Shown: piece after piece, positions 549-39,049 of the stretch
Layout: each line of letters begins with the position of its first letter
Position numbering within the stretch: position 1 is the first letter of the stretch
Source of the DNA: a virus
DNA length: 39,049 nucleotides
Reading direction: 5' to 3' (one strand)
IMG/VR virus record: IMGVR_UViG_3300034156_000028
Span: 1-39,049 of that record
Program-made: the position numbers and the translations under genes
The notes under the pieces: model-generated
Told to the model about the DNA's origin: nothing
The model's input: only the letters and a program-made list of their open reading frames with translations
The model's database searches: none

Positions 549-577
549 ATCTTAAGGCAATACGATTCCTTTGTCAA
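549..577 (-). promoter_or_regulatory. Sigma70-type promoter for the 66-aa gene
   Basis: On the minus strand there is TTGACA (plus positions 572-577), a 17-nt spacer and TAAGAT (549-554). Transcription would start near 542, leaving a leader of about 15 nt with a GGGAG site before the ATG at 527. A plus-strand promoter starts only 15 bp away at 593, forming a divergent pair. Confidence 0.6.
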
Positions 578-592
578 TAATCAAAACAATTG

Positions 593-621
593 TTGACACA
601 AAAGGAATCACGTGTTACATT
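593..621 (+). promoter_or_regulatory. Sigma70-type promoter for the pentapeptide-repeat gene
   Basis: TTGACA at 593-598, a 17-nt spacer and TACATT at 616-621. Transcription would begin near 628, just upstream of the TAAGGATGG ribosome binding site and the ATG at 640. This argues that the longer reading frame opening at 571 is not the true start. Confidence 0.6.
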
Positions 622-639
622 TCTTGTAAGGATGGTGAA

Positions 640-960
640 ATGAAAATGACTAGGGAAAAATTGTCAGTGACTTTAACCGATCATAAGATATGGTTAAACA
701 ATTCCAATAATGGTAAGATGGCTGACCTCTCGGGGGCTGACCTCTCGGGGGCTGACCTCTACGGGTCTGACCTCTACGGGGCTGACTTATCCGGGCCTGA
801 CCTCTCCGAGGCCAACCTATACCGCGCTAACCTCTCCGGGGCTGACCTATCCAGGGCCAACCTATACAGGGCCAACCTATCCAGGGCTGACCTCTCCGGG
901 GCTGACATCTCCATGGCCAACCTATACCGCGCCAACCTATCCGAGGCCAAAATGGGATAA
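640..960 (+). CDS. Pentapeptide-repeat protein
   Basis: A 106-aa protein made almost entirely of pentapeptide repeats. After a 27-residue lead there are 15 consecutive A(D/N)LXX units (about residues 28-102) and a short AKMG end. Repeats of this kind fold as a right-handed quadrilateral beta-helix, and 15 units give almost four coils. Family members such as Qnr and MfpA mimic DNA and bind gyrase, but most are uncharacterised and this one is shorter. The ATG at 640 is chosen because it follows TAAGGATGG and the promoter at 593-621. The DNA is itself a degenerate 15-bp repeat, which also opens a spurious second frame (710-973). Confidence 0.85.
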
Positions 961-2125: not shown

Positions 2126-2157
2126 AAAAGCCACGGCGCAAACCGTGGCTTTTGTTT
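2126..2157. terminator. Bidirectional terminator between convergent units
   Basis: An 11-bp perfect stem, AAAAGCCACGG (2126-2136) with CCGTGGCTTTT (2143-2153), with an A run on one side and a T run on the other, so it can stop transcription from both directions. It separates the plus-strand accessory unit (ending 2101) from the leftward amidoligase operon (ending 2172). Confidence 0.9.
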
Positions 2158-2171
2158 TGTCCTGATACCAG

Positions 2172-2279
2172 CTATGGAGCCAGGATCTTGAAGATAACCG
2201 CAACGCTCCCCATAATAGCAAGTAGCGCAGCTGTTACAACGAAAAAGGAAATGAACCAAAGAGCGTCCTTTAGGTTCAT
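2172..2279 (-). CDS. 35-aa membrane peptide at the end of the amidoligase operon
   Basis: Starts at ATG 2279 in an ATGA overlap with the stop of the 104-aa gene and ends at TAG 2172-2174. After MNLKDALWF the segment up to VAVIFKIL is continuously hydrophobic and should form one transmembrane helix. It is translationally coupled to the three genes upstream and is followed by the terminator at 2126-2157, so it looks like a genuine fourth operon member. Function is unknown; a membrane anchor for the operon's product or enzyme is one possibility. Confidence 0.55.
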   Translation of the reverse strand: MNLKDALWFISFFVVTAALLAIMGSVAVIFKILAP

Positions 2280-2590
2280 TTAGCCGCATCCAGTTTAAAA
2301 CTTTCCATCTGAAGAAATCCTTGTGCCCATTTGGTTGATTCCATTCGCTTGAAAGTCAGTCCATAATAGCCCGATACTGCGTTAAGCCTAGACCACGTTA
2401 GAGGGGTGTTATATCCTTCTGTTGACAGGTGTATTTCTGAGGAATAAGCATTCCTCCACGCAATGGTGTAACCGTGAAGAGACCATACCACCTTTCCATT
2501 AAATCTGTTAATGTAGATCTTATCCCTTTCGGAAAGATGGATAACTCCCTGGACAAAACAGTCAAGACACTCGGCGATATTCTTTCTCAT
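2276..2590 (-). CDS. 104-aa protein, third gene of the amidoligase operon
   Basis: Starts at ATG 2590 in an ATGA overlap with the amidotransferase stop. The middle (KVVWSLHGYTIAWRN ... HLSTEGYNTPLTWSRLNAV) looks like paired beta strands followed by a short helix. From memory this pattern resembles small phage proteins of unknown function with a TTRSRLN-like signature, but I would not name the family. No catalytic motif is evident. Tight coupling on both sides suggests it works with the ligase and amidotransferase. Confidence 0.8.
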   Translation of the reverse strand: MRKNIAECLDCFVQGVIHLSERDKIYINRFNGKVVWSLHGYTIAWRNAYSSEIHLSTEGYNTPLTWSRLNAVSGYYGLTFKRMESTKWAQGFLQMESFKLDAAK

Positions 2591-3516
2591 ACTTTGACTT
2601 CCTTCCCAAGTGCATCGGTAACATAGTCGATCATTTCAGTGTGGCCAGTTGACAGAGTTAGAATGTGCAATTCTCCCGAATCTGTGTCAATCCAGAACTC
2701 TTCTTTGCCATATTCTAGCATACTGGAGCCCTGCCGGTAGATAGTCCCGTCCGAACCATAGACCATCATGTAGTCTGGTAGTCTTTTCATACTACCAGAC
2801 CCGGACACAGGAACGGCAGTCTCGCCATAATCATCACGATCATCATGATCAAAGTCTAGATGATTGTACGGCTTGCCCTTGTAAACTGTGACATTTTTCC
2901 AACCGGCTGACCCATATTTACCGTAGTAATCCGAGTAGTCAAAATCTGCATAGCTGTCATTTGACCAAAAACATCCCCCATGGTCTTTCCAGACTCCAGC
3001 CTTAAGGAAAGAGCCGTCCGCATACAGGAGGGCGAACCTTGAACCGCTGGAGGTCTCGTCCATGAAATACTGTGTAAAGCGCTTGTCCTGTAAGTCGATC
3101 TTGGACAAGAAGCACCTGACATAATTGGCTGTATCCGAGTAAACAGTGTCTGATGGTACGCTCGTCAAAATCCCGTTATGAGCAAACGCCGCTTTTGTCT
3201 TACCAGACAGTAACAGGATTTCCTTTGAATCCCTTGTAACCGGGAATGGATGGGTCATAGCTTGACCCTTTCCTCCGTGCGTGGCAATCCTGAAATGGAA
3301 GACCCAGCTCATCGATTTCCATTGATCAGCATGATCGAGAATCGATTGATAGGCCTTCTGGAAGCTTTCTTCCTTCAGGTATCCCTTGTTCCAGTTGACG
3401 TCTTTTCCAGTGGCATACATGAATCCGAAACCATCGAAGTTCGAGTCCCAGCAATTTTGCATTTCGGCCATTGTTGGGAATGGTTGGCCTTTAGGTTTAA
3501 TAGCAATTACGCACAT
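2587..3516 (-). CDS. Class II glutamine amidotransferase (Ntn hydrolase)
   Basis: 309 aa, beginning Met-Cys, so Cys2 becomes the N-terminal nucleophile after Met removal, as in class II (GatII) amidotransferases. Further family motifs follow: DGFGF (28-32), HFRIATHG (74-81), HPFPV (89-93), AHNGI (112-116) and SDT (127-129). Such domains hydrolyse glutamine and pass ammonia to a partner. The C-terminal half is Asp/Tyr-rich and unrecognised. A GAGGAG-type site precedes the start, 39 bp after the amidoligase stop. No synthase domain is fused, so the amidoligase encoded just upstream is the obvious partner; this pairing is known from phages and bacteria (Iyer, Aravind and colleagues). Confidence 0.9.
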   Translation of the reverse strand: MCVIAIKPKGQPFPTMAEMQNCWDSNFDGFGFMYATGKDVNWNKGYLKEESFQKAYQSILDHADQWKSMSWVFHFRIATHGGKGQAMTHPFPVTRDSKEILLLSGKTKAAFAHNGILTSVPSDTVYSDTANYVRCFLSKIDLQDKRFTQYFMDETSSGSRFALLYADGSFLKAGVWKDHGGCFWSNDSYADFDYSDYYGKYGSAGWKNVTVYKGKPYNHLDFDHDDRDDYGETAVPVSGSGSMKRLPDYMMVYGSDGTIYRQGSSMLEYGKEEFWIDTDSGELHILTLSTGHTEMIDYVTDALGKEVKV

Positions 3517-3555
3517 AAAAACTCCTCTATATTAAAACATTCTAAACCAAAAGGT

Positions 3556-5193
3556 CTAGATCTCGCCGGACTCATCCACGCTGTCGTTTTCAGGGTCTCT
3601 CTTGCGAGACTCCCAGTACTCGGCAATTTCCTTGAATCCAAAATACTTAATTATGGTCAAAAACCCCATAGATTTTACAGACTCCCAGTCTTCGGTATGG
3701 CAAATATGGGCCATAGTGTGGGCAAGTTGAGCCGAGGCAAGCCACGTATCATATCGGAGGGTTCCGCGAATGAACCGGATCTCGATAGTGTGCTCATTGG
3801 TAATGTTCACCATGCGATAACGGTCATAGTTCACGTTCATGTTTCCAAGTTTCAGGGCGTTTTCTTGCAAGTTTCGCCGTTGAGTTGAGTCAAAGTAGCA
3901 TTTTGCCCATTGGTTGAAAGAGTCCCTAGTCCTTCTGGAGAAGGTAAAAAACTTGTCTTTGAACTTTTCCGTAAGATACACAAGCTTACTTACTCCCTCT
4001 TTTCCCAAAAATGACCGGGTGAGATGGAAGTGAAGACCACAATCGCCGTTATCATGGGAGGTGTACCCTGCGCTGATGAGCCTTCGGAAAAGCCCCTCCC
4101 AGTCCAGTTTGACCAGTTCTGCGTATGTATGCGGATGGGTTACAATCTCGACTCCATCGTCATTGAGAGATCCGTCATGTTTCATATAGAGCCTGGACTC
4201 ATCCGGGTTAAAGTTCGAGATGATAGACGCTCCACCATCCCCGCCCTCGATCTCCAGCTCCATCCCTAAAAAGCATTCATCCGCATTCCCATAGTACAGG
4301 AACTTTTTAGGGTTCCATGAGTGATCATGGATTATGGAATCATTAAAGCAACGCTCGCAATAGTGATAGCCCCAGCGACTTTGAGAATCACCTCTTAGGA
4401 TGAAATCTCCGCAAGATTCGCATGATACATAATTTGGAGCGCAATTAGGACACAGTCTTTCGAAATTGTTACATTCATGGTCTTGTGAGTAATACCTCTC
4501 CCCGCAATCTCGGCACGTTCTAAACGCCTCTCTTTGACATGTCTCGCAAAAATGGCTTCCGTCATGCTCAAAACCGTTGTCATAATGACTACTTTGGCAA
4601 TGGTGGCACTCGACAACAGCCATGTTAGGATCTGGGACAAACGGCTCCCATTTTTCATAGTTAAAAGCAAATTGAGAATCGATAGTGACTTTGTAGTGTT
4701 TCATTCCCTTTGGCGGGCACACTCCGACAAAGTACCTGTATTTGTTTGGTCCATCTATGTTGCTAGGATCTTTAAACAGCCAAACACGGTCCTCATTTGT
4801 CCATTTGATATCACTCGGTAACCTCGGCACATTGGCGTATCGCGAGCCACAAAACCATGGCGCTTCCTGGAAACAATCCCAATAGACACCCTCTAATCCA
4901 TCGACAACAAACCTCCAAGATCTTATAGGATCCGTGGAGGCCCTTCCAATCTCATCAGTAACATCGATAAAGTGATTCAAGTCTTCTTGATTCCAGTACC
5001 ACAGCGACCCATTTAAATCGATGTCACACTGTGTGTTAGCGGTGTCAGGATGACTCGCCTTAAACGGTAATCCGTTCAACACCTCAAGCATAGGCCTCGA
5101 CCATCCGAGGTGGTACTCTAGAGTCCGATCATTTTCAGGCGGAGGGCACTCCCACCTGTAAGTGTGGCCAGCAATAAAACACGGGATACTCAT
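3556..5193 (-). CDS. Zinc-ribbon amidoligase (COOH-NH2 ligase type)
   Basis: 545 aa from ATG 5193, preferred over ATG 5211 because AAAGGAG is correctly spaced only for 5193. The N-terminal 190 residues are unrecognised. Residues 196-282 carry six CxxC pairs (196/199, 216/219, 227/230, 248/251, 258/261, 279/282), suggesting about three zinc ribbons. The C-terminal half has the amidoligase pattern: GMELEIE (310-316), KHDGS (338-342), GVEIVTHP (347-354), CGLHFH (385-390) and TIEIRFIRGT (469-478). This fold, related to glutamine synthetase, joins a carboxylate to an amine using ATP. The substrate is unknown. First gene of the leftward operon with its own promoter at 5225-5252. Confidence 0.85.
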   Translation of the reverse strand: MSIPCFIAGHTYRWECPPPENDRTLEYHLGWSRPMLEVLNGLPFKASHPDTANTQCDIDLNGSLWYWNQEDLNHFIDVTDEIGRASTDPIRSWRFVVDGLEGVYWDCFQEAPWFCGSRYANVPRLPSDIKWTNEDRVWLFKDPSNIDGPNKYRYFVGVCPPKGMKHYKVTIDSQFAFNYEKWEPFVPDPNMAVVECHHCQSSHYDNGFEHDGSHFCETCQREAFRTCRDCGERYYSQDHECNNFERLCPNCAPNYVSCESCGDFILRGDSQSRWGYHYCERCFNDSIIHDHSWNPKKFLYYGNADECFLGMELEIEGGDGGASIISNFNPDESRLYMKHDGSLNDDGVEIVTHPHTYAELVKLDWEGLFRRLISAGYTSHDNGDCGLHFHLTRSFLGKEGVSKLVYLTEKFKDKFFTFSRRTRDSFNQWAKCYFDSTQRRNLQENALKLGNMNVNYDRYRMVNITNEHTIEIRFIRGTLRYDTWLASAQLAHTMAHICHTEDWESVKSMGFLTIIKYFGFKEIAEYWESRKRDPENDSVDESGEI

Positions 5194-5224
5194 CTTTTTC
5201 TCCTTTGGCATTTAGCCAGCGTTT

Positions 5225-5252
5225 ATTCTACTCAATAGCGATCATTTGTCAA
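5225..5252 (-). promoter_or_regulatory. Strong sigma70-type promoter for the amidoligase operon
   Basis: On the minus strand there is TTGACA (plus 5247-5252), a 16-nt spacer and TAGAAT (5225-5230, five of six consensus bases). Transcription would start near 5218, which leaves room for the AAAGGAG before ATG 5193. It borders the DnaA-box region, so the operon may be transcribed early and sense origin activity. Confidence 0.75.
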
Positions 5253-5455
5253 GTGTTTATATAGAAGTAAGTTATCCACAAGCAATTGGGGAAATGTGCA
5301 TAAGTTTGTGGATAACTATTGACACTTTTCCACAGCCTGTGAATACTGTTGATAACCGGTATGGGATAGCATACGTTTTATCCACAGGTTGTGGATAACA
5401 GAGTCGGATAGTACAAAACATCCATTATGTCCAAAACATCCATTGCATCCAAACT
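5253..5455. other. Putative replication origin with five perfect DnaA boxes
   Basis: Perfect TTATNCACA boxes lie at 5272-5280 (+), 5295-5303 (-, N=G), 5307-5315 (-), 5378-5386 (+) and 5390-5398 (-), with a near match TTTTCCACA at 5326-5334. A 13-bp direct repeat, CAAAACATCCATT, follows at 5414-5426 and 5432-5444. The region has no gene and separates the divergent amidoligase and replication units. This is the layout of an oriC-like or plasmid-like origin opened by host DnaA. Replication origin is the best reading; a DnaA-responsive promoter region is the alternative. Confidence 0.8.
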
Positions 5456-5545
5456 ACTGTAAGGAGTCCAAGTTTCACTGTAAGGAGTCATCATTGATTC
5501 CTATTGACAGTTGCATAAACGTATGATAGATTGACTGTAAGGAGT
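5456..5545 (+). repeat. Three perfect copies of a 12-mer that doubles as a ribosome binding site
   Basis: ACTGTAAGGAGT occurs at 5456-5467, 5477-5488 and 5534-5545. Only the third copy sits at the right distance before a start codon (ATG 5552). The first two precede no recognisable gene and lie upstream of the promoter at 5504-5532. A related CACTGTAAGGAG occurs near 17041 and GTGTAAGGAGT at 18190-18200. The spare copies may be recombination debris or sites for a regulator. Confidence 0.8.
5504..5532 (+). promoter_or_regulatory. Sigma70-type promoter for the rightward early operon
   Basis: TTGACA at 5504-5509, a 17-nt spacer and TAGATT at 5527-5532 (four of six). Transcription would start near 5539, next to the AAGGAGT that serves ATG 5552. 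It is the first promoter after the origin and probably drives the cluster of small overlapping genes from 5552 on. Confidence 0.65.
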
Positions 5546-5551
5546 GAAGAA

Positions 5552-38922: not shown

Positions 38923-39049
38923 CACCAACCCACCCCCCGGAACCAGTGAATCATGCATAGTAATCCATGGTGACACGAAAACATGTGAATATATGATCAC
39001 ATGATCATATGATACTGAGTATCATTAGGGTGGTAGGATTGTTGATTAT
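38923..39049. repeat. 127-bp terminal direct repeat, right copy
   Basis: Identical to 1-127. Joining the two copies continues the sequence without a break, so features here and at the left end are one locus. Confidence 0.95.

Follow-up and report, generated by a model that had tools for sequence, protein, structure and literature searches.

Phage genomes contain pairs of amidoligase and amidotransferase genes that are usually recorded phage by phage as incidental "auxiliary" genes. Such a pair is found, followed by two small genes, in the 39,049-nt stretch of viral DNA analyzed here (hereafter, the window). The initial annotation treated the four genes as one compact operon for amide-bond formation. 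Two questions are thus raised by this locus: which of the four genes belong together and on what the encoded enzymes may act.

Layout of the operon

The ORF list and the sequence confirm the coordinates of the four ORFs, all of which lie on the minus strand. The locus contains the following features:

2126..2153, no strand assigned: bidirectional intrinsic-terminator-like hairpin at the operon end
2172..2279, minus strand: ORF for a 35-aa single-span hydrophobic peptide, ATGA-coupled, hydropathy maximum 2.58
2276..2590, minus strand: 104-aa protein, divergent relative of phrog_554 and Pfam Kyano_Gp96, ATGA-coupled
2587..3516, minus strand: class II (Ntn) glutamine amidotransferase/amidohydrolase, 309 aa, putative Cys2 nucleophile
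3556..5193, minus strand: zinc-ribbon amidoligase, 545 aa, assigned from profiles, predicted fold, invariant residues, and CxxC positions
5225..5252, minus strand: promoter-like TTGACA-16-TAGAAT, sigma-70-like, 11 of 12 positions matched
5272..5398, no strand assigned: DnaA-box cluster, probable replication origin adjoining the operon, with four perfect TTATCCACA and three one-mismatch copies

The amidoligase frame opens at 5211, which would give a 551-aa product; an ATG at 5193 gives 545 aa. The latter start is preferred because an AAGGAG Shine-Dalgarno sequence is located just 5′ of this ATG, in agreement with the length annotated initially. A 551-codon frame with homology is well beyond chance. 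The ATGA overlaps ascribed to the small genes can be read directly from the sequence, at 2587–2590 (amidotransferase/104-aa gene) and 2276–2279 (104-aa/35-aa gene).

The operon had been credited with its own promoter, and a candidate is indeed present at 5252–5225 on the minus strand, although promoter-like sites are only slightly in excess in the region (11 compared to a shuffle mean of 7.1). Together with the terminator-like hairpin at 2126–2153, it provides the operon with plausible ends of its own. The 39-kb window contains five TTATNCACA boxes, compared to an expected count of 1.1, and every one of them falls within the 127 bases of 5272–5398, upstream of the operon; the one-mismatch DnaA-box copies in the cluster are TTATGCACA, TTTTCCACA, and TTATCAACA. 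The cumulative GC skew of the window has its minimum near 5 kb. The proposed position of the operon next to a replication origin is thus well supported. A 127-base direct repeat common to both window ends suggests a complete, circularly assembled genome. The terminase encoded in the window matches only distant Vibrio phages (22%).

The first gene encodes a zinc-ribbon amidoligase with a predicted glutamine synthetase–type core

The 545-aa protein consists of an orphan N-terminal part (residues 1 to about 190), a zinc part (196 to 282), and a core (about 303 to 530) of the glutamine synthetase (GS)/GCS type. When the profile search proposed in the initial annotation was performed, the protein matched phrog_16683 (E = 8.9e-49) and phrog_2443, "amidoligase enzyme" (E = 3.8e-10), and fell just below the cutoff of Pfam Amidoligase_2 (PF12224; E = 3.3e-4, 21.1 bits, gathering threshold 22). 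The same Pfam family was matched by 56 of 58 aligned members of the subfamily at E up to 1e-3, the best value being 3.4e-15. Scans of viral_contigs with single proteins as queries returned no matches because the proteins are too divergent, and PDB sequence searches of the same kind returned none either.

In an AlphaFold2 model, most of the core has a pLDDT above 90. Comparison of the model with known structures yielded Z scores of 10 to 12.8 for YbdK/GCS2, plant GCL, and GS taken together, with Z = 12.8 (3.8 to 4.6 Å over 215 to 219 residues) for YbdK/1tt4 (GCS2) and Z = 10 to 11.6 for GS. The core is therefore predicted to adopt the GS/GCS fold. Foldseek matches to the Pup ligase/depupylase PafA/Dop were weak only (E = 3e-3 to 6e-2). 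Ten positions are invariant in the alignment of 58 divergent members (G310, E312, E314, D340, E349, G386, H388, N463, E471, and R473), and H390 is kept in at least 90% of the sequences. The motifs GMELEIE, KHDGS, CGLHFH, and TIEIRF, noted initially as the core of the enzyme, are present and hold these invariant positions. Such a pattern would be expected of a GS-type metal/ATP site, the equivalence to GS ligands being drawn from the motifs.

The zinc part, encoded 5′ of the catalytic core, contains six CxxC motifs and resembles zinc ribbons and LIM domains. A LIM Pfam match was obtained for 2 of the 58 members (best E = 5.9e-9) and not for the window protein, and the profile of the zinc part matched LIM chains of paxillin and CRP at E = 1e-4 to 3e-4 (one value being 1.4e-4). 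Cysteine spacing alone could be the source of this similarity. For the N-terminal part described as unexplained in the initial annotation (about 190 to 195 residues), no relatives were found in viral loci, and the model is mostly unconfident there, with a pLDDT below 50 for residues 1 to 125.

The second gene encodes a predicted Ntn-type amidotransferase

The 309-aa protein contains a catalytic domain (residues 1 to 195) followed by an orphan C-terminal tail, for which no relative was found among viral loci. The match to Pfam GATase_4 is below threshold (E = 2.2e-4, 20.7 bits, gathering threshold 23); this family was matched by 20 of 57 members at E up to 1e-3. The class II assignment made initially is also borne out at the level of predicted fold. 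Residues 1 to 190 were modeled by AlphaFold2 with a pLDDT mostly above 90, and comparison of the model with EgtC, GlmS, GFAT, and PurF gave Z scores of 11 to 14.8 overall (EgtC, 14.8; GlmS, 14.4; PurF, 11 to 12). The second enzyme is thus predicted to have the Ntn fold of the GlmS/EgtC type.

The protein starts with MC, and the cysteine named earlier as the N-terminal nucleophile, C2, is invariant in all 57 aligned sequences, as are N26, G29, H74, R76, H113, N114, G115, D128, S185, and N186. The RxxT and HNG motifs are kept, and the invariant set includes the residues of the putative glutamine site: R76, H113-N114-G115 (the HNG oxyanion hole), and D128.

The two genes form a near-obligate pair in a fixed order

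Relatives were gathered from phage records, viral contigs, and one genome per species, and loci were found through motifs of this amidoligase/amidotransferase subfamily. In 103 of 111 dereplicated evaluable loci, an amidotransferase gene lies downstream of the amidoligase gene within 2 kb on the same strand; this number pools amidoligase- and GATase-anchored loci, the latter half having needed only the GATase. The distance is within 150 bp in 90 of the pooled loci and within 30 bp, or the genes overlap, in 66; eight amidoligase loci have no amidotransferase nearby. Cleaner, one-sided counts give an amidotransferase downstream in 53 of 61 amidoligase-anchored loci and an amidoligase upstream in 66 of 70 amidotransferase-anchored loci. 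Reversed order is seen only in 2/56 and 4/67. In bacterial genomes, the pair is present in 73 of 75 loci (not dereplicated). Its hosts are mostly Ruminococcus and other Oscillospiraceae, some genomes carry several copies, and the loci are often near resolvases and integrases. Across very divergent phages and bacterial mobile elements, the pairing is thus near-obligate and order-fixed. Distances of the two proteins co-vary, modestly (r = 0.25; 0/1000 permutations).

The next most common neighbors are the large terminase TerL (19 of 114 loci) and SSB (14 of 114), and no conserved third gene was found among the neighbor clusters of the 114 loci. The recurrent WhiB, SSB, TerL, integrase, and resolvase neighbors are generic.

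One locus (L216:1674-3845) contains a single ORF with both domains in frame. The second domain retains its own GGAGG and ATG, and neighbors have a stop codon at about the same place. A lost stop or an assembly indel being equally likely, the fusion was not taken as proof of cooperation.

The small genes lie outside the conserved core

The 104-aa protein matches phrog_554 at E = 1.1e-4 and PF23790 (Kyano_Gp96) at E = 0.004 (17.7 bits, threshold 27). It can be aligned to the products of genes upstream of the amidoligases in three loci, L103, L106, and L124, and these products themselves match phrog_554 at 5e-12 to 4e-11. The three loci represent one other lineage where a phrog_554 relative is found beside the pair. 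The 35-aa ORF is a candidate gene recognized by its coupling and hydrophobicity, and no relatives were found in viral loci.

A small membrane peptide was also considered as a third component of the system. In raw counts for Ruminococcus, small membrane ORFs occupied 19 of 41 gaps separating the pair, compared to 3 of 33 control gaps. This signal vanished upon dereplication: the values were 3/171 module slots versus 44/675 control slots in viral loci and 2/38 versus 2/139 in genomes. Such a peptide was therefore not retained as a general feature of the system.

Relatives of phrog_554 are seen beside the pair in a single further lineage, the 35-aa peptide has no relatives in viral loci, and there is no excess of small membrane ORFs. 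Both small genes are therefore lineage-specific additions that are co-transcribed with the pair but lie outside the conserved core. The view of the four genes as one unit is not borne out by the neighborhood survey, in which the small genes and the pair do not travel together. What stands of the compact amide-forming operon is its first two genes, supported by profiles, folds, and adjacency.

Relation to known systems

Amidoligase-amidotransferase pairs were said at the outset to be known from phage genomes, and annotated examples exist in several groups. Mycobacterium phage Marvin (gp105-gp106) and its relatives, with the annotation "glutamine amidotransferase domain protein," likewise have a zinc-ribbon amidoligase directly followed by a class II amidotransferase. 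The Marvin proteins share domains with those of the window at about 31 and 27% identity but differ in the N- and C-terminal parts, and no 104-aa or 35-aa gene was found at the Marvin pair. In OM43 phages MEP401/402, an amidoligase (PF12224) and a GATase are adjacent in the same order as in the window and have been described as a pair with no known role (PMC10580990); identity to the window proteins is about 24 and 29%, and the zinc ribbons align poorly. LUZ24-like phages tf and UFV-P2 encode Amidoligase_2 and class II amidotransferase proteins in the early region (PMC3517423, PMC3890496). There, however, an HNH gene separates the two, and the neighborhood includes genes for ATP-grasp, COOH-NH2 ligase, and GGCT proteins, which were not seen in the window operon. 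In Phage-ZRK32, the two genes are likewise annotated as neighboring or adjacent (PMC10945688).

Outside phages, the window amidoligase shares its predicted catalytic fold and ExE/His/ExR-type conserved positions with YbdK/GCS2 and GS but has only 9 to 16% identity to them, a zinc-ribbon N-terminal part, and a phage/mobile-element context. The amidotransferase shares the predicted Ntn fold and N-terminal Cys with EgtC and the GlmS glutaminase domain (Z = 14.4 to 14.8), from which it differs in being free-standing with an orphan C-terminal tail (13 to 14% identity). The window pair, at about 30% identity, is thus a divergent representative of a recognized phage module, with an orphan N-terminal part. 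The present analysis adds how strong and how fixed in order the pairing is and that it extends to bacterial mobile elements; it also provides fold-level support and places the small genes outside the core.

Possible function of the pair

The explanation that we favor, and to which we assign about even chances, is that the first two genes form one functional unit in which glutamine-derived ammonia amidates a carboxylate of a pre-existing macromolecule. The class II amidotransferase would use its N-terminal Cys (Cys2, after removal of Met) to take ammonia from glutamine and pass it to the amidoligase. The GS-like amidoligase would use ATP to activate the carboxylate as an acyl-phosphate, whose reaction with ammonia would yield a primary amide. 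Elsewhere, LIM zinc domains are protein-binding modules, and the probable role of the LIM-like ribbons that precede the core is to dock a protein or another macromolecule; it is this LIM-like part that speaks for a macromolecular substrate. Since neither a conserved third gene nor pathway genes accompany the pair, the substrate would probably be a molecule that the cell already contains, whether a cell-wall peptide or a protein of the host or phage, and not one made by a phage pathway.

The main rival, doubtful in our judgment, gives the second enzyme a different role. In ergothioneine synthesis, the GCS-fold EgtA ligates and the Ntn hydrolase EgtC cleaves a γ-glutamyl bond; by analogy, the amidoligase may link an amine to glutamate (through its γ position) or to a different amino acid, and its Ntn partner may hydrolyze the γ-glutamyl bond. 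By sequence, an amidotransferase and an EgtC-like hydrolase are indistinguishable, and the conserved residues would recognize the γ-glutamyl group in glutamine or in a conjugate. The top structural matches, YbdK/plant GCL for the ligase and EgtC, including an EgtC-substrate complex, for its partner, are those that an EgtA/EgtC-like pair would give. However, the Z scores of the GlmS and GFAT glutaminase domains differ from that of EgtC by less than 1, and the fold therefore cannot decide between a glutaminase and an EgtC-like hydrolase. Some other phages additionally have γ-glutamylcyclotransferase and glutathione synthase–like or ATP-grasp genes (PMC10945688, PMC3890496), but in the clusters examined, neither a cyclotransferase nor an ergothioneine gene is a recurrent neighbor of this subfamily.

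A specific-substrate version of amidation by the pair, amidation of the cell wall that blocks superinfection, appears rather unlikely. Wall modification of this kind was suggested for phiEco32, an idea credited to Iyer et al. 2009 in PMC10580990 and PMC11318856. The occurrence of the pair in phages, prophages, and other mobile elements is in line with it, and MurT/GatD, as outlined in PMC3267633, set a precedent for a ligase and an amidotransferase, of different folds, acting on the wall. Yet wall-specific genes are not among the recurrent neighbors of the pair, a comparison with PADLOC anti-phage defense profiles gave no match (E up to 0.1) for any of the four operon proteins, and the dereplicated loci have no excess of small membrane ORFs. 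A role in auxiliary nitrogen metabolism, by which the pair would aid nitrogen assimilation into amino acids during infection, was proposed for Phage-ZRK32, a phage with amidoligase and amidotransferase genes that promoted growth; in the passages of PMC10945688 concerned, the growth effect is reported for the phage, with no individual gene shown as tested. Zinc/LIM-like domains, strong sequence divergence, and the occurrence of multiple copies in one genome on mobile elements would better fit manipulation of a host or competitor than bulk metabolism, and we regard the nitrogen role as highly improbable. No direct test of the pair genes was found in the passages of the literature that propose wall or nitrogen roles. 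Hypermodification of DNA or nucleotides was considered and rejected, there being no kinase, synthase, or modification gene among the recurrent neighbors examined.

Returning to macromolecule amidation, the near-inseparable, fixed-order pair lacks a conserved third partner; the two proteins are therefore best purified and assayed as a unit, and the substrate is narrowed to the contents of the cell. Its identification would explain a widespread phage enzyme pair that has so far gone unexplained. A broader proposal, which we put forward as unlikely, is that a self-contained macromolecule-amidation system of two proteins is common to phages and the mobile elements of gut bacteria; in it, the LIM-like zinc module would direct the GS-fold ligase to its target, a host protein, and the dedicated glutaminase would supply ammonia. 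If true, this would represent a general, previously undescribed phage-borne post-translational modification.

Exceptions to and variants of the amidoligase/amidotransferase pairing

The amidoligase of Clostridioides phage AR1086-1 is an exception to the pairing of amidoligase and amidotransferase genes:

L004:7737-8849 (L, stretches collected around relatives of the pair), AR1086-1 amidoligase

This protein is without zinc ribbons, and no neighbouring amidotransferase was found for it. Close relatives are carried by C. difficile plasmids (H53-H55). Four class II amidotransferase genes stand in tandem at L164:5310-8481, and no amidoligase was found in the fetched stretch that holds them.

Some genomes of Ruminococcus flavefaciens and its relatives (L170-L249) contain several amidoligase/amidotransferase copies. 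A single-span membrane ORF of 47 to 67 aa often lies between the two genes in these loci, and a 94-aa ORF is located upstream in 55 of 78. This arrangement is limited to the lineage; examples are the following:

L175:7093-7272
L179:1785-1943

Repeats and replication signals in the window

571-960, pentapeptide-repeat protein gene (Pfam E 4e-34)
1457-1673, tandem GGTCGTGGTCGT array (periods of 12, 18, and 30 bases; matches of about 90 to 93%)
5272-5546, DnaA-box cluster (four perfect boxes and three with one mismatch) and adjoining repeats

The pentapeptide-repeat gene precedes the GGTCGTGGTCGT array, in which several reading frames are open. An exact direct repeat of 127 bases is present at both window ends (1-127 and 38923-39049), which suggests that the assembly is complete and either circular or terminally redundant.

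Shortly past the DnaA boxes of this 39-kb phage window lie three ACTGTAAGGAGT repeats (5456-5546). Beyond the boxes, GC skew of the plus strand is positive nearly up to the window end, even though it is the minus strand that carries the late genes. This pattern would fit replication that runs mainly in one direction.
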